This document shows positions 46,759 through 54,703 of a DNA stretch of 64,000 nt, piece by piece. This DNA comes from Tunturiibacter gelidiferens. Its GTDB lineage: Bacteria > Acidobacteriota > Terriglobia > Terriglobales > Acidobacteriaceae. The notes under the pieces were generated by a model. That model searched no databases. It was given only the letters and a program-made list of their open reading frames with translations, and was not told where the DNA came from. The position numbers were made by a program, and so were the translations under genes. The DNA lies in NCBI RefSeq assembly GCF_014201335.1, contig NZ_JACHEB010000005.1, positions 310,001 to 374,000 of the forward strand, written 5' to 3'. The first letter of the stretch is position 1, and every line of letters starts with the position of its first letter.

Positions 46759-48027
46759 CTAGTCTACGTTTCCGCTTACTGCGAGGCACGTCGCTTGTCC
46801 GGTCGCCGTGAAGGTAGATCCTCGACGTAGATCCGAGAGCGTGCCTGTCGTAGAGATCTGCTTGCCAGTCACCGTCCCATCTCCATTTGACGTATAGACG
46901 TATTGAAATGACGGATCCTCAACCATACAAACCGGTCCCGCGCCCACTGTGTATGGGTTGTTCCCGGGATCGTTCAGCTCCTGTAGCTGTCCGGTCGTCT
47001 GAATTGTGAATGCTGAAATCGAGCTGTTGGGATTTGTTGTATTGGTCGTCGACTGATTCGCAACATATACAAATTTATTTTTGCTATCAACCAGAGAATA
47101 AACCGGATTCGCCGCCGGAGAGATGTTCCCAACCGCTCCACCTGTGATCGTGTTCAACGAACACGAGGTGGCGCCGACAGTAAAGGGTAGAACTTGTCCT
47201 GGGCTGTTCGCGTTGGGGGCGCCTGCATCGGTAATATAGACGTTGCTTCCGCCTGTAATGATCGACGTCGGCCGCACCGCTCCCGAGTTGAACTTCTGCG
47301 TTGTCGTCAACGTCAGCTGCCCCGATGTCCCTACAGCGTAGGGTGAGACCGTCTGGTCGGCAGTGTTCAGCGTAAGCACGCACGAGCCAGCTACAGCCAA
47401 CATTGTCGGCGTCTGCCCAACGGGGAAGTAAGTAATCTGCAGACCCGTCACTGGATCTTTGATCTGCTGGTTCAACACCAGGGTCAGCCGCCCTGTATTT
47501 GGATCAATCGAGAATACAGTGATGTCCCCATTCGAAGGAGCCGGAGGATTGGGGTCGGCCGGAGTCCCGGTCGGAGGCGGAGCCTGCTGGTCCAATACAT
47601 ACAGGAAATTTCCCGTCGAATCGTGAGCCGCCCAGACAGGGTTGGTCCCCTGGCTCTGGAAGCATTGCTGGAAGGTCAGCACACCCTGGCCGCCAACGCT
47701 GAACTCGCTGATGCTGCCAGCAGTGCCGCACGGCAAACCCGCGGATGGTCCGTTCCCACCGCCCCTGTTGACCACGTAAATGAAGCGGCCGCCCGGCTTC
47801 ACCACGATCGACACCGGGTTTGCCCCGCCAGAGGTGAACGGCGAGTGAGGAATTGCCGTCAGATTTCCCGTGAAGTCATCGATCTTGAAACCTGCGATCT
47901 GGTTGTACTGCGTTCCAAGAACCCACATGAACCCAATCGTGCCACCACCGCACGCCGTCATGCCCAGACCCATCGCTACGGACACTACCAAGGCCATTGC
48001 TACACGGCCAATCCTGCTCAACTTCAT
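46759..48027 (-). CDS. Beta-propeller (lactonase-like) lipoprotein
   Basis: 422 residues, paralogous to 45298-46653 and 105 bases upstream of it on the same strand. Lipobox MTAC, then blades with FIYVVNRGGGN, FLYVLDQQ, FVYVANQSTTN and YVYTSNGDGTV. A tandem duplication with considerable divergence is inferred. Function unknown. Long leader region upstream (about 350 bases) to the MCE gene. Confidence 0.85.
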   Translation of the reverse strand: MKLSRIGRVAMALVVSVAMGLGMTACGGGTIGFMWVLGTQYNQIAGFKIDDFTGNLTAIPHSPFTSGGANPVSIVVKPGGRFIYVVNRGGGNGPSAGLPCGTAGSISEFSVGGQGVLTFQQCFQSQGTNPVWAAHDSTGNFLYVLDQQAPPPTGTPADPNPPAPSNGDITVFSIDPNTGRLTLVLNQQIKDPVTGLQITYFPVGQTPTMLAVAGSCVLTLNTADQTVSPYAVGTSGQLTLTTTQKFNSGAVRPTSIITGGSNVYITDAGAPNANSPGQVLPFTVGATSCSLNTITGGAVGNISPAANPVYSLVDSKNKFVYVANQSTTNTTNPNSSISAFTIQTTGQLQELNDPGNNPYTVGAGPVCMVEDPSFQYVYTSNGDGTVTGKQISTTGTLSDLRRGSTFTATGQATCLAVSGNVD

Positions 48028-48385: not shown

Positions 48386-49471
48386 CTAGAAGATCTTGAG
48401 ATGAATCGTCAAATACTTCTTCGGATCGCTTCGAATTGTCTTCACCAAGTCTGTGCTCGCCTCGAGCAACTTATTCAGGTTCGTGTAGGCAGCGTCATCA
48501 GTCACCAGCTTGCCCAGAGTTCCACGACCATCATTTACGCCGGTAACCAGCGTATTCACCTGCGTTAGTGTGTTGCTCAGGTCCTGGCGAAACTTAGGAT
48601 CCTTTAGCATCAGCCCCAGGCCGCCCTTACCAGCATCCGCGTCAGCCAGCAACGAGTTCGCGTGAGCCAAAGACGAGTTCAGATTTGTGTAAAGGGTGTC
48701 GTCCTTGATCAGCTTACCCGCGGTCCCCTTACCACTATTAATGCCATCCGCAATATTCTCTAGCTTTACAACAGTGTCATTCAAGTTGTTATAGAGAGTA
48801 TCGTCGTGAAGCAGCTTACCGACCGACCCTTGCCCAGCATTCAAATTCTTCACAAGCCTCTGCAGTTGATCGACAGTATTATCCACCTTGTTAATCAGAT
48901 CAGGATTATTGATCAGCTGCCCAATGGTGCCCTTACCAGACTGAATGTTGTCGACGATCACATTCGCCTTCGCCAGAATTACATTCAGACTTTCAATTGT
49001 CCCCTGGCTCGCCTTCACCACATCGGTCAAACTCGGCGTCTCCAGCGTCTTCAATACATCCCCGTCCTGCAGCGGCGGCCCGACGGCAAACTGGCTGTTG
49101 ATATCCACTACCGTATCGCCCAGCACTCCCACCGTCGACAGTGAAGCTTTCGAGTCTTTCTTCAGGTTGGTGGCGAACTTTTCGTTCATCTTCATTACAA
49201 CCTTCACCGGAGTCAGCTTGTGCTCGGGCGCATTATCAATTGTTACTGCTTTCACTGTCCCGATCGTCACGCCCTCCAGGTTCACTGCTGCACCTGTCTT
49301 TAGCCCGGCCGAATTCGCGAAGAACGTCGTAACCGTCAGCTTATGCGAGAAAATTCCCAGCCCCGACGAGCTCGTCATCAGGAACAGCAGCGTCACCAGC
49401 ACTATCGTCGAAATCAGTACAATCACGCCCACCTTCAACTGCGACCACCGTACCTCCTGCTGGCTGGGCAT
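48386..49471 (-). CDS. MCE/MlaD family protein with five 34-residue C-terminal repeats
   Basis: 361 residues: one N-terminal TM helix (LKVGVIVLISTIVLVTLLFL), an MCE domain (TTFFANSAGLKTGAAVNLEG, VGVLGDTVVDI), then a helical tail. In the tail the motif GKGT.GKL..D..L..NL recurs with the glycines at residues 179, 213, 247, 281 and 315, an exact 34-residue period. Family members bind lipids and shuttle phospholipid or sterol between membranes with an MlaEF-type ABC unit; no such partner genes lie next to it. Start ATG with AGGAG upstream. Confidence 0.9.
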   Translation of the reverse strand: MPSQQEVRWSQLKVGVIVLISTIVLVTLLFLMTSSSGLGIFSHKLTVTTFFANSAGLKTGAAVNLEGVTIGTVKAVTIDNAPEHKLTPVKVVMKMNEKFATNLKKDSKASLSTVGVLGDTVVDINSQFAVGPPLQDGDVLKTLETPSLTDVVKASQGTIESLNVILAKANVIVDNIQSGKGTIGQLINNPDLINKVDNTVDQLQRLVKNLNAGQGSVGKLLHDDTLYNNLNDTVVKLENIADGINSGKGTAGKLIKDDTLYTNLNSSLAHANSLLADADAGKGGLGLMLKDPKFRQDLSNTLTQVNTLVTGVNDGRGTLGKLVTDDAAYTNLNKLLEASTDLVKTIRSDPKKYLTIHLKIF

Positions 49472-50688: not shown

Positions 50689-51969
50689 CTAATGCACGTC
50701 TAGCTTCCTTGGTTTCTGCCCCCACAGCCCCAACCGAAACGGAACCCCCACAGAGAACTGCAGATTCGGCGTATCCGGTGTCAGCCCCACGCCAAAGCTC
50801 AGATCGATCGTTCGCCCTGGCGCATAGACATAGCTTGTTCCCAATCGCAACGAACCCTCTACTAAGTACGACGCCGGAATATCAACTCCGTTCAATGTGG
50901 TGCTGCGTGTAAATCGCTGATCCCACCCCACCGTCATCGACACTTCTGGATTCAACGCCAGAATAGAGCCTAACTGGAAGCCAATTGCATCACCCGGGTT
51001 GAAGTGTCCTACCATCGTCGCGGCGGGGTTATTCGGATCGTTTGCTGAAATCGTGTGGGTGCCGCTCAAGTTAGCCGTATAAGAGAGATTCCCAAAGAAC
51101 ACCACCGGGTCGCTGGACTTTGCCACAGTCAGATTCCCCTGAATAGCATTGAACCCGGTTCCGAGAGCCAACTGGCTGCTTTGCAAGTTGTACGGATCTT
51201 TTCCCGTCGTCGATTTAAAACGCACGTTCGCCAGCATGTCTGGAACTTTTCCATGTTCGGTCGTTAGCTGCCGTGAAAGCCCTGCAGCGATATCGCCCAA
51301 CCCGAAGCTGCTCGATGAGGTTTGGACGTTTGTAGCGTCCACCGTTCGAATCTGTTCATATCCATAGGGGACGACAAACTCACCTTGGAACTTATGCGGT
51401 AACCCCAGTCTCGCGGTCATACTCGGCAACAGGTAGTCTCCCCGCACGCGCTCTGAAGTGATATCGCCCACCACCAGCACCGGCAGCAACGCAAATCCAT
51501 TGACCGTCAGATGGTCCGATGAGGCACTGAAATAAGAGGTAGTGTTGTCGATCTCCAGCGTCCCGGAAGGTAGCAGTAATCCGCCTCGCACAATCAAAGC
51601 CTGATCAAGTGCCTCCGTCGCCTGCCGCTCCGTGGTGTCGTAGGTCGAGGTCGACACGACCGAATTGATCACGCGACTGCTTGAAGCAGCCGGTAATGCA
51701 GGACGCTCATCAGCTCTCGCCGGGGTGGTATATCCACCATTGACGCGCCACTCCAACTCATTCATTCGCTCCAACAGATTGCGGATGATGGCATCGCGCT
51801 CTCGCAGCGCCTCCTGGAGCTTCAAATCAGTCGGATCTCTCCCCGGGGTCGTGGCCTTGGCAACCTCCTGTGGCTGCGATTGTCCTTTAGTGGGTGTTGT
51901 CTGCGCCAGCAGCGGTCCCGCGCCAACCGCCATCAACACAATGCCTGGTAAGAATCTTTGCAGCGACAT
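50689..51969 (-). CDS. FapF-like outer-membrane beta-barrel with N-terminal coiled coil
   Basis: 426 residues. Signal peptide ending near GPLLAQ, short Pro/Gln/Thr-rich segment, a coiled coil (LKLQEALRERDAIIRNLLER, MNELEWRV), a linker, then about 300 residues of amphipathic beta strands with alternating patterns (GTLEIDNTTSYFSAS, LNGVDIPASYLVEGSLRLGT) as in the phenol-MetA/FapF barrel group. This order, coiled coil before the barrel, is that of FapF, the secretion pore of the Pseudomonas amyloid system. Last gene of the operon; start at ATG 51969, 17 bases after the C39 gene. Identification rests on architecture plus the neighbours. Confidence 0.72.
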   Translation of the reverse strand: MSLQRFLPGIVLMAVGAGPLLAQTTPTKGQSQPQEVAKATTPGRDPTDLKLQEALRERDAIIRNLLERMNELEWRVNGGYTTPARADERPALPAASSSRVINSVVSTSTYDTTERQATEALDQALIVRGGLLLPSGTLEIDNTTSYFSASSDHLTVNGFALLPVLVVGDITSERVRGDYLLPSMTARLGLPHKFQGEFVVPYGYEQIRTVDATNVQTSSSSFGLGDIAAGLSRQLTTEHGKVPDMLANVRFKSTTGKDPYNLQSSQLALGTGFNAIQGNLTVAKSSDPVVFFGNLSYTANLSGTHTISANDPNNPAATMVGHFNPGDAIGFQLGSILALNPEVSMTVGWDQRFTRSTTLNGVDIPASYLVEGSLRLGTSYVYAPGRTIDLSFGVGLTPDTPNLQFSVGVPFRLGLWGQKPRKLDVH

Positions 51970-51985
51970 TGACGCACCTTTCCCC

Positions 51986-52666
51986 TCAGTACAAATAGTT
52001 GCTCGGAGCGACAACCCCGATCTTGCGAGAGATCAGCGATTCATCTGGCACCAGCCCAGCCGCCGCCGGTAGATTTCTTTCCCCAATCATTCTGTCGTCC
52101 GGTGGATGTACTACGAACACAATCCCGTTCTTCCACAGCTTTTGAAACCGGTCCACTCGCATCGTCATATTGCCGAATCCCGGATCGCCCACAATCACAT
52201 GTCCGGCATATATGCCCTTGATCACCACAAAGTGGTCGAACCCTTTCACTCGTATCGGGACGATGACGGAAGTTTTTTCCAGCGCAAGATCTTCAACAGT
52301 CATGCCGCTAAAAGCCTCCGCGTGGTATCCGCGAGCCTCGGCAAAGTGCTTCAGATCAAGCAAAGAAAACCCACCGCGAGAGCGCACGCGACCAGCATCC
52401 ACGCGATGCAGTAGCCAAACCACGATCGAAGTCTCGGGCGTATTGTCTTTGAAGTCGTAAGTGAGCAGCGTGCTCAATGCTGCGGCGCCGCAGCTCACAT
52501 CCCAACGCTGCTTCACCACGCCCTCATTACGAATCTCTTCCAGGCTTCGAATGTTCTTGCTTCCCTGCACCCCCGTCGCGGTGCCGGTATTCTGGCCGCG
52601 TGCGGGGGCGGGGAAGAGAACAACGCTAACCAATCCAGCAAAAAAAATGGATCGAAGACAGTTCAT
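51986..52666 (-). CDS. FapD-like C39 family peptidase, secreted
   Basis: 226 residues with signal peptide (FFAGLVSVVLFPAPARG). Papain-like C39 core: Cys in RWDVSCGAAALSTLL, His in GFDHFVVIKG, Asp in IVGDPGFGNMTM. A stand-alone exported C39 without ABC parts is typical of FapD, which acts in the periplasm during amyloid export. It overlaps the upstream small secreted protein by one base (TGATG), implying translational coupling. Confidence 0.82.
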   Translation of the reverse strand: MNCLRSIFFAGLVSVVLFPAPARGQNTGTATGVQGSKNIRSLEEIRNEGVVKQRWDVSCGAAALSTLLTYDFKDNTPETSIVVWLLHRVDAGRVRSRGGFSLLDLKHFAEARGYHAEAFSGMTVEDLALEKTSVIVPIRVKGFDHFVVIKGIYAGHVIVGDPGFGNMTMRVDRFQKLWKNGIVFVVHPPDDRMIGERNLPAAAGLVPDESLISRKIGVVAPSNYLY

Positions 52667-53079
52667 CAGTGTTTTCCGGCGCCCAGGTTGGACTGCACGA
52701 TAGATCCGACCGTCGAGTTCATATTGACGTTCAAATTCAGCAGCACATTGATGTTCGAGTTCACCGCGTTGATGTTGACTAGCGAGCTCAGATTCTGTTG
52801 CGCGCTGCCGTTCAACGTCAACGTGCCCATATTGGTCGTTGAGGTCAACGGCCCGGTCAGCACCTGCAACGTACCCGCACCTGTCACCAGGCCGTTAGGT
52901 GTTGCTGCCGATCCTTGAAACTGCACGACTCCATTCGACAACCCCGCTGAAACGCCCGCTGCCGTGACTCGATCCATGGCAGCGTCGTTCAGCGGTTGGC
53001 CCGCATGCTTGGTTGAGCTTTGGGCTAGTCCTGCAGTACTCAGCAGCGCAAGACTCGCAATCACTAAAAGACGACTCAT
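52666..53079 (-). CDS. Small secreted Fap-like protein
   Basis: 137 residues. Signal peptide (MSRLLVIASLALLSTAGLA), then LNDAAMDRVTAAG at residues 30-42, a motif also present in the large secreted protein upstream. The C-terminal half, LTLNGSAQQNLSSLVNINAV plus NSNINVLLNLNVN, is Asn/Leu/Val-rich and resembles the GSA..N...INV type of amyloid repeat. It may be a minor or nucleating subunit, or a chaperone like FapA/FapE; which one cannot be decided. Confidence 0.7.
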   Translation of the reverse strand: MSRLLVIASLALLSTAGLAQSSTKHAGQPLNDAAMDRVTAAGVSAGLSNGVVQFQGSAATPNGLVTGAGTLQVLTGPLTSTTNMGTLTLNGSAQQNLSSLVNINAVNSNINVLLNLNVNMNSTVGSIVQSNLGAGKH

Positions 53080-53155
53080 ACATCCTCCTCAAAGCCGTGT
53101 ACAAGGACAGCCCGGGACTCCACCACAAGTGCGGAGTCCCGCTCTGTCGTTGTTT

Positions 53156-54703
53156 TTAGTGAATCTGCGAGATGCTATTGACCTGAGTGAGTGACGGGAT
53201 AGGATTCATGCCTGACGAATGGGCAACGTTCACGCCATTCCCAACCATGCCGCCTGCCGCATTGACGATGTTGATCGCCTTCGCATTCGACTCAGCCGAT
53301 CCGGCGAGCGTCATGCTGTAGTTGTTGGTCGTGCTGATCGTCGACCCATCGACTGCGATGTTAGTCGCAGCTGCATCGGCGAGAGTGACCGCACCCTGAA
53401 CGTTGTCAGTTACCGCCGTGCTCTTCACTGCAGTCAGCGACTTCGAATCCGAAGCGCTCGTCGTCAGGCTGGCAGCCTGGCTGGTAGCGAAGTCATCGGA
53501 AGAAGACACATCGTGGGTCAGAGAGGAGTTATGTGCGAGGCTGACGCTCTTTGTGCTTGATGCGTTGGACGCCTCGGCAGCCGTCGAAGACTTGGTTCCA
53601 GAAGCGGACTCAGCCTCCTGCGCGGCCTCCGAAGACGACTTGTTGGTTGCAAAGTTGTCTGTCGTTGCGCCGTTTGCTGCGAGGGTCTTGTTGGAAGCAG
53701 CGTTCAGGCTGCCGTTGAGCGAGGCGGCGCTGTTTGAAGCGGTCGTGTCTGTCGCCGAGCCGTTGCCGGTTGCGTTGAACGACGATCCACCATTCGCTGC
53801 ACGAGTGTTGTTGGCTGCGCTTCCAACCGTCCCCGAGGTGCTTCCGCCACTCGAAGAAGTGTTGTTCGAAGTCGAGTTGCCAAGTGTAGAGGCGCTCCCT
53901 CCGGGATCAGCCGATGCGCCGTTCGCGGTGAATCCACCGCTTGCGGTGCCATTGGCGCTCTTTGCTGCGTTTGCCGCTGTGGTCAGAGTGGCGCCAAGCG
54001 ACTGCGTCGAACCCGCCGTCAGAGAAGCGTTCGTGGCGAAGGCGTTGGTCGTGCCACTTGTCTTGCTGGCATTCGCCGCGGCGGAAGCCGACTCAGTCGC
54101 CGAGGAACTCTTGCTTGCACTGGCATTCTGAGCAAAGCTCTTGCTTGAGTCGAACGTGTCCGTCGTGCTGTTCGTCTTGGACAGATCGTTAGTGTTCGCC
54201 TTGCTGTTCGTGGTGCTGCTATTTTCGGCAGCGTCAAGGCTCGCCGAAGAGCTGCTCGTCTTGGCGACGTTCGAGCTCTTATTCACTGTCAACTGGCTGT
54301 TTTTGCCGCGGTGATAGCCGGAAAGCGTCGCCGTTGAGTCCGAACCCTGAGAGATATCGTTGCCTTGCGTAACATCGGATCCTTTGCCCGAGGTATCGCT
54401 GCTGTCATACACGTTGACACCATTGGCCACCATGGCATCGCTGGAGTTCACAATGTTGATTCCGCTCGCGCTGCTCAACACACTGCCGCTCACATCCACA
54501 GATCCTGTGTTGCTGGAGGTGACAGTCGAGTTATTCGCTGCGATCGAAGAGTCGCTCGCGCCTGCCGTGATGGTGTCCAACTGGTTGTCACGGAGCGCCT
54601 GCTTGGTCTGCTTGTCGTTCGATGGTTTGGGCTTGTTCTGGCCATAGGCGGAGCCGCCGACGAGAACCGATGCAGTAACGAGAGTGCAAGCTAATTTATT
54701 CAC
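53156..54703 (-). CDS. Large secreted Ser/Ala/Asn/Thr-rich protein with terminal amyloid-type repeats (FapB/FapC-like)
   Basis: 515 residues from GTG 54703 (AGGAGG five bases upstream). Signal peptide up to GSAYG, then LRDNQLDTITAG at residues 37-48. Two matching repeats lie at the ends: INIVNSSDAMVANGVNV (near residues 82-98) and INIVNAAGGMVGNGVNV (near 477-493), each preceded by a SG.. or AGS segment. Between them is a roughly 350-residue low-complexity linker in which FATN/FAQN/FATS recurs (near 190, 222, 351, 405). This layout of conserved repeats joined by long variable linkers is that of FapB/FapC fibril subunits. First gene of the operon. Function as a fibre is inferred. Confidence 0.75.
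   Translation of the reverse strand: MNKLACTLVTASVLVGGSAYGQNKPKPSNDKQTKQALRDNQLDTITAGASDSSIAANNSTVTSSNTGSVDVSGSVLSSASGINIVNSSDAMVANGVNVYDSSDTSGKGSDVTQGNDISQGSDSTATLSGYHRGKNSQLTVNKSSNVAKTSSSSASLDAAENSSTTNSKANTNDLSKTNSTTDTFDSSKSFAQNASASKSSSATESASAAANASKTSGTTNAFATNASLTAGSTQSLGATLTTAANAAKSANGTASGGFTANGASADPGGSASTLGNSTSNNTSSSGGSTSGTVGSAANNTRAANGGSSFNATGNGSATDTTASNSAASLNGSLNAASNKTLAANGATTDNFATNKSSSEAAQEAESASGTKSSTAAEASNASSTKSVSLAHNSSLTHDVSSSDDFATSQAASLTTSASDSKSLTAVKSTAVTDNVQGAVTLADAAATNIAVDGSTISTTNNYSMTLAGSAESNAKAINIVNAAGGMVGNGVNVAHSSGMNPIPSLTQVNSISQIH

Follow-up and report, generated by a model that had tools for sequence, protein, structure and literature searches.

The Fap system of Pseudomonas (fapABCDEF) makes a functional amyloid with the help of a periplasmic C39 peptidase, FapD, and an outer-membrane barrel, FapF, that carries a plug helix and a coiled coil; its large subunit has conserved repeats and a variable linker and is accompanied by a second, smaller exported protein. 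A C39 gene is likewise paired with a barrel gene in Acinetobacter, where we take the gene names to be FilA, FilB (the C39 peptidase) and FilC (the barrel). In the PCAT/AMS transporters, the end of a C39 leader is typically Gly-Gly, Gly-Ala or Gly-Ser, and a hydrophobic groove of the LahT150 peptidase binds Leu-12, Leu-7 and Val-4 of the leader (PMC6363468). FapD is needed for Fap secretion, and its C38A exchange abolishes secretion of FapC (PMC5557850); its substrate was called unclear in 2017 (PMC5557850) and undetermined in 2018 (PMC6173800), and a 2025 review describes it as thought to process FapE and FapF (PMC12822426). Here we analyze a 64,000-nt stretch of the acidobacterium Tunturiibacter gelidiferens (contig NZ_JACHEB010000005.1; hereafter the window), in which four genes, P0001-P0004, probably form a self-contained operon for the secretion and assembly of a surface fibre, Fap-like in its working and of a different lineage.

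The four genes are close-packed on the minus strand at 50689-54703. First comes P0001 (53159..54703; 515 aa; stop 53156-53158), a large secreted repeat protein and the predicted major fibre subunit, whose GTG start is preceded by AGGAGG. It is followed by P0002 (52669..53079; 137 aa; stop 52666-52668), a small secreted protein predicted to be a minor subunit or nucleator, then by P0003 (51989..52666; 226 aa; stop 51986-51988), an exported C39 peptidase, and finally by P0004 (50692..51969; 426 aa; stop 50689-50691), an outer-membrane exporter with the FapF fold. Start codons were chosen manually, and the signal peptides of the operon proteins were assigned by eye. P0001 and P0002 are separated by 76 nt and P0003 and P0004 by 16 nt, whereas P0002 and P0003 overlap by one base (TGATG). 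The host genome is of the Edaphobacter type, the nearest named locus being that of E. lichenicola with 86% identity in the C39 protein; E. lichenicola M8UP30 has the operon. A first-pass annotation of the window had read this region as four tightly packed minus-strand genes for an exported C39 peptidase, a coiled-coil plus β-barrel protein and two secreted proteins; its coordinates are exact, and its reading of the two machinery proteins is borne out by the searches and models that follow.

P0004 matched the NCBIfam model of FapF at 7.1e-29 and that of FilC at 3.4e-14 (53 bits, cut-off 630), and a profile built from the Edaphobacter-group rows alone retrieved the FapF of the PDB at 5e-30. An AlphaFold2 (AF2) model of the protein (predicted local distance difference test score, pLDDT, 76.1) placed the FapF crystal structures first in a Foldseek search (1.6e-21). 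In VIA comparisons it superposed on 5o65 with Z 30.6 and a root-mean-square deviation of 1.8 over 265 residues, the plug region included, with the COG4313 channel 4rl8 behind FapF at Z 25.4. The model resolves into a coiled-coil helix (residues 46-76), a plug helix (107-128) and a barrel (137-414). The coiled coil contains the R-h-x-x-h-E trimerization motif described for that of FapF (PMC6173795), here R68-E73, of which R68, L72 and E73 are invariant in 16/16 sequences; position 69, a nearly invariant Val among the 16 homologues, is Met in the window protein.

P0003 matched Pfam Peptidase_C39 at 1.5e-15 and, among NCBIfam models, FilB at 2.5e-34 (the top match; 119 bits, cut-off 475) and FapD at 1.3e-29 (103 bits, cut-off 330). 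All NCBIfam scores of the operon proteins lie below the curated cut-offs. The same holds for our control, a Fap operon of Paraburkholderia (L071), whose FapD scores 197 bits against the same cut-off of 330. Gln53, Cys59, His145 and Asp161, which we assigned from motif context as the oxyanion Gln and the catalytic Cys, His and Asp, are invariant in all 16 aligned homologues. The protein is a stand-alone C39 domain behind a Sec signal, with no fusion to an ATP-binding cassette (ABC) transporter.

The feature that ties this peptidase to its predicted substrates lies directly behind the signal peptides of the two secreted proteins, where both show the motif L-x-D-x-x-[LM]-D-x-[VI]-T-A-[AG]: LRDNQLDTITAG in P0001 (54560..54595, minus strand; aa 37-48) and LNDAAMDRVTAA in P0002 (52957..52992, minus strand; aa 30-41). 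With Leu at -12, Leu or Met at -7, Val or Ile at -4, Ala at -2 and Ala or Gly at -1, it follows the double-glycine-type rule of hydrophobic residues at -12, -7 and -4 and small ones at -2 and -1, -2 being mostly Ala and not Gly. P0003 shares the family, the catalytic set and the leader code with the PCAT/AMS enzymes (LahT150, ComA). Unlike them, it is free and exported, has no ABC transporter, and its predicted target leader follows a Sec signal peptide.

A DNA pattern for the leader was found at 22 sites in 13 of 61 genomes (that of the window included), and all 22, assigned to genes by hand comparison of positions, fall inside P0001 or P0002 of the operon; elsewhere in the 61 genomes there was no occurrence, and the reversed-pattern control gave none. 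Two operon-bearing genomes (G001 and G022) lack the exact DNA pattern and have variants such as ISDSQMDNVTAG. A looser protein pattern behind a signal-like stretch was present in 70 of 74 repeat- or P0002-type open reading frames (ORFs) from loci L036-L077 vs 20 of 958 background ORFs, and seven of these 20 adjoin other C39 genes. The four ORFs without it comprise three seemingly cut off at or near contig starts (L045, L058 and L060) and one with the variant LDDARLARITPG (L057, 2414-4096). This regular expression carries some circularity, since positions -12, -7, -4, -2 and -1 are fixed in it. Independent support comes from the DNA pattern count with its reversed control, from plain alignments, and from residues beyond the pattern's demands, namely Asp-10 (61/70), Asp-6 (54/70) and Thr-3 (57/70); among the 70 rows are both window proteins and one ORF picked wrongly (L056, 517 aa). 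The leader in both subunits is newly observed here, and its fit to the double-glycine code suggests that C39 cleavage would take place there. A literature search, mostly without subscription papers, turned up nothing on a Sec-plus-double-glycine leader for FapD and nothing on this operon in Acidobacteriota.

The four genes are inherited together. Among the 61 genomes, 18 have a match to P0003; in 15 of these the operon is present, in duplicate in one genome. The remaining three matches (G036, G058 and G060) are weak, belong to other C39 proteins and were not counted. The same set of 15 is recovered with P0002 and with P0004, decayed pieces in G011 aside. That genome shows a decayed operon (L139; G011:C5:400000-412000) with a P0001 remnant, P0004 in pieces and no match to P0002 or P0003, which is as expected if the parts of the operon are useless alone. 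We examined 17 regions, the window and 16 fetched ones: in 16 of them all four genes stand in one common order, and the seventeenth (L035, from G058) has nothing of the operon beyond a weak C39 match. A look at gene order, as proposed in the first-pass annotation, finds the four genes together in the window and 15 further operons, with the terminal repeats of P0001 present in the homologues. With the FapF fold of the barrel, none of the three outcomes that the annotation had named as refuting its reading occurred.

A wider survey sampled 396 genomes of the phylum and found 20 that match the C39 profile at 1e-8 (12 from the genus, one from the same family and seven from elsewhere with weaker scores). 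Among 12 regions fetched next, L128 and L135-L138 contain all four genes, as does L134, in which P0001 is broken into two ORFs. C39 and barrel matches alone were present in L129 and L130 and the C39 match alone in L131-L133, while L139 is the decayed operon of G011. P0002 was found in 9 of 297 phylum genomes, all of the genus or family. A scan of genome contigs gave 42 loci, 17 from the Edaphobacter group and 25 others, of which 13 (L053-L064 and L068) combine repeat proteins, a P0002-like gene, C39 and barrel. These come from Marinobacter, other Gammaproteobacteria, Desulfobulbaceae, Desulfuromusa and metagenome-assembled genomes labelled 'Deltaproteobacteria'; the repeat genes of L053 lie on the opposite strand, and the repeat gene is truncated at the end of the contig in both L058 and L060. 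An IQ-TREE phylogeny of 46 C39 domains puts the 31 repeat-cassette enzymes on one side of a branch (support 97/82) and separates them from the remaining rows, whether Fap-like, Fil or other; the Fil and Planctomycetaceae rows are long branches of unsure placement. To judge from these sequences, the cassette represents a distinct lineage that has conserved subunits of its own and extends beyond Acidobacteriota. Co-localised fapD and fapF homologues are reported from five additional phyla (PMC6173800), among which Acidobacteriota may be, and Fap operons also from Desulfobacterota, Nitrospirota and Bacillota (PMC12822426). These reports limit any claim of novelty and bear on the first-pass remark that Fap systems are described mainly from Proteobacteria.

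The predicted major subunit has a matching repeat at each end, as the first-pass annotation had noticed: R1 at 54347..54547 (minus strand; aa 53-119) and R2 at 53165..53362 (minus strand; aa 448-513), the latter ending in a Q-x-N-x-I-x-Q pattern. Both were delimited with a repeat hidden Markov model (HMM) in whose building they were included, and a hand count gives 24 identities over 50 aligned positions. Since this HMM also detects at least two copies in most repeat proteins of other phyla, the repeats are no accident of low complexity. Between them lies a low-complexity linker (53363..54346, minus strand), of which aa 120-440 are 24% Ser, 19% Ala, 15% Thr and 10% Asn. P0001 homologues with the same end repeats were aligned from 15 further operons; across the 16, the linker varies with species from nearly none (the L025/L044 homologue, 207 aa) to several hundred residues, and the L024 homologue has four repeats by eye. 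On the opposite strand, 53403-54131 (+) holds a 242-aa open frame that is most likely a by-product of the linker codons. The 'related repeat' claimed for P0002 stood only in part: its profile does relate to that of P0001 (hhalign 97%, E 8e-11), largely through the signal peptide and leader, to which a short stretch resembling GTLTLNGSAQ adds, whereas the repeat HMM finds no copy in it. We therefore base its subunit role on the leader, its place in the operon and this short stretch. The mature parts of both proteins are free of Cys, neither had a match in Pfam or NCBIfam at E up to 1, and a profile of the repeat proteins found nothing among PDB sequences at E up to 1.

An RNA hairpin, which like the leader the first-pass annotation had missed, is conserved between the first two genes. 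In the window it spans 53101..53153 (minus strand; 21 pairs, loop of 4, minimum free energy -34.8, z -3.9), and across 16 operons the P0001-P0002 gap measures 70-99 nt and folds at -31 to -50 kcal/mol, with stems of 15-30 pairs ending 11-28 nt before the second gene. MAFFT aligned the hairpins at only 47% mean identity, too poor for pair counts, so we used z-scores and arm swaps instead. The z-score was -3.3 or lower in 13 of 15 distinct sequences. A 5' arm paired with its own 3' arm gave a mean of -34.0 vs -17.4 with the arms of other species, and the own arm was best in 12 of 15, a comparison biased towards own-arm pairing because the arms were defined on the fold of each sequence itself. 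The place of the hairpin is kept while its sequence turns over; an Rfam search gave no match. Since no U-run stands directly behind the stem in the window, a role in mRNA stability or processing appears likelier than that of a full terminator.

The FapF fold, the leader motif, its exclusivity and the co-inheritance of the genes together argue for an export operon that would work as follows. P0001 and P0002 would cross the inner membrane via Sec and lose their signal peptides; periplasmic P0003 would then bind the 12-residue leader, now near the N termini, and cut behind A-G or A-A. Freed and largely unfolded, the subunits could leave through the P0004 barrel, gated, by analogy with FapF, by the plug helix and a coiled coil that is presumably trimeric as in FapF. 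Outside, P0001 might assemble through its two repeats patterned in Asn and Gln, with the variable linker looping out as in FapC and P0002 serving as nucleator or minor subunit; on the same analogy, P0001 may form amyloid. The hairpin behind P0001 probably keeps its mRNA above that of the downstream genes, which would yield an excess of major subunit. In this cassette without FapE, the predicted C39 site is carried by the subunits themselves. This would mark a difference from Pseudomonas, in which mass spectrometry showed FapB and FapC unprocessed and suggested processing of FapE (PMC5557850).

That Pseudomonas result is one of several points that weigh against the proposed fibre operon. The leader positions were partly imposed by the search pattern. 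The repeat HMM had no match in P0002 at E up to 10, and the AF2 model of the linkerless P0001 homologue (L044) was unreliable (pLDDT 48.5) and for that reason left out of the fold search; we likewise take no evidence from the repeated spacing of its strands. Two of the hairpins are weak (z -1.7 and -0.8), and in one genome (G416) P0001 is split over two ORFs. Finally, the NCBIfam models of FapB and FapC had no match among the four proteins at E up to 1, and comparison of the repeat-protein profile with Paraburkholderia FapB/FapC, a profile of only four rows, gave a probability of 0.3%. A very distant homology of P0001 and P0002 to FapB and FapC could nevertheless exist.

The alternative that survives these data best, though we think it unlikely, is that the same machinery exports a non-amyloid adhesin or pilus-like fibre with the Ser/Ala/Thr/Asn linker as a stalk. 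The name Fil suggests such a fibre for Acinetobacter; FilB is the best NCBIfam match of P0003, and C39 and barrel genes are directly adjacent here as in the Acinetobacter locus (L146). There, the protein before the C39 gene matches DUF6160 (3.9e-9), and we call it FilA-type on this match and its position, assuming that DUF6160 is indeed linked to FilA; it has a Sec signal followed by MDDAALSAATGQ, a leader of the same kind. One of 27 repeat proteins also matches DUF6160 (2e-4), as does a small protein of L056 below the cut-off and over residues 5-39 only (0.0082). P0001 and P0002, in contrast, have no Pfam match to DUF6160 at E up to 1, the FilC match of P0004 is weaker than its FapF match, and the genes behind the L146 barrel, where Fil has filD-filF, lack a counterpart here by eye. 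The repeat-linker-repeat layout with a hypervariable linker fits FapC instead, in which linker 2 ranges from 35 to 259 residues (PMC12392863).

Improbable, by a good deal more, is the divergent, reduced Fap of the first-pass annotation, with P0001 as FapC, P0002 as FapB, P0003 as FapD and P0004 as FapF, and with FapA and FapE lost. Its machinery half stood: HMM searches recovered FapD and FapF, the Sec-exported C39 peptidase and the FapF-fold barrel with plug helix and R-h-x-x-h-E coiled coil are in place, and the order of large subunit, small subunit, C39 and barrel agrees, as does the presence of a repeat-bearing large subunit with a variable linker beside a smaller exported protein. Its membership half did not. 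FapE, like FapB and FapC, had no match at E up to 1, though the control operon shows all three (FapB 1.3e-20, FapC 6.7e-10). Unlike Fap, which has three imperfect repeats of ~39 residues, P0001 has two of ~66; both subunits bear a C39 leader; and the C39 and barrel genes are adjacent, with 16 nt where fapE would lie between fapD and fapF. The C39 tree, moreover, groups P0003 with the repeat-cassette loci of other phyla. FapA is often missing from true Fap operons (PMC3792158); here there is no fifth gene in the unit and no FapA-named match, the presence of a FapA model in NCBIfam not being established. We accordingly rejected a canonical Fap on its subunits. Double-glycine leaders with C39 peptidases usually indicate export of bacteriocins or of ribosomally synthesized and post-translationally modified peptides (RiPPs), and the leader type and the C39 similarity to bacteriocin transporter peptidases fit this, but such a system is very improbable here and was rejected, since P0003 is a free, exported peptidase of 226 aa with the C39 domain only and no ABC fusion, the substrates have 515 and 137 aa with Cys-free mature parts, and none of the four genes encodes a modifying enzyme. 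The cassette, which probably works like Fap, differs from it in its subunits, is not Fil by its subunits either, and is classed here as a variant of C39/FapF-type fibre export.

With less confidence than for the operon itself, we lean towards a general two-signal route, in which proteins pass through Sec, are cut by a free periplasmic C39 peptidase at a double-glycine-type leader and leave through a FapF-type barrel, relatives of FapD and FilB following the same rule. This route would be seen most plainly in the Edaphobacter cassette, where the leader sits on the fibre subunits themselves. Exported neighbours of other C39 classes also have leaders, such as VDAAQLDTLRGG in Massilia (in the FapE position), LDDNELAEVYGG in Nitrospiraceae, that of the Acinetobacter FilA-type protein, and ISNEELDSQRGG in another acidobacterial lineage (L129). 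Of 19 further loci covered, three were dropped for want of a C39 ORF by motif; 12 of the remaining 16 have at least one leader-bearing neighbour (all but L067, L073, L077 and L148), with leaders in 21 of 128 near ORFs vs 2 of 404 far ones (p 4e-12, only indicative because the ORFs were called mechanically, are not independent of one another and include a few near hits that seem due to chance). Chance probably accounts for the near hits that L069 and L074 have in membrane proteins, and one of the far hits (L069, other strand) resembles a genuine leader.

Several of these loci merit description in their own right. L129 (676-2257, from G248, in another Acidobacteriota family) has a C39 gene with two leader-bearing neighbours (VSAEQLEDQAGG and ISNEELDSQRGG); its barrel match is on the other strand, and its C39 groups on long branches with those of Croceicoccus, Cupriavidus and Massilia. 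In Crenothrix polyspora and Methylobacter tundripaludum (L066 and L075), three small exported proteins each, with leaders of the LSNTQMDTVTAG type, lie beside C39 and are possible further substrate families. In Crenothrix and an uncultured proteobacterium (L076:6893-8269 and L077:2367-3707), C39 is continued in one chain by ~280 further residues that look by eye like an outer-membrane barrel, Pfam detecting the C39 part only; L076 also has an exported neighbour with the leader-like VSPTELNQVSGE.

Around the operon, a scan of the window gave five promoter-like sites vs 1.7 expected and five terminator-like sites vs 5.0 expected. Just one of the promoter-like sites falls on the minus strand, and P0001 has none upstream of it; we therefore claim no promoter for this gene. 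On the same strand, 48386-49471 encodes a protein of MCE/MlaD-type look by eye, with about four repeats of the GKGTxGKLxxDDTLYxNL kind behind the domain, and 46759-48027 a predicted lipoprotein with the look of a β-propeller (lactonase/YncE-like; by eye).

If the two-signal route is true, FapD, FilB and their relatives act on FapE-like, FilA-like and other small exported proteins, which would answer what FapD cuts. That question is now testable, as the predicted cut site is explicit, recurs in both predicted substrates of an operon and is confined to them across the genomes searched. The rule, should it hold, would also allow exported substrates to be predicted from sequence at many C39-barrel loci, even for subunits without recognisable homology. 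For the Acidobacteriota, a common soil phylum, the operon points to a probable matrix fibre, the subunit ratios of which could be set by the conserved RNA hairpin.

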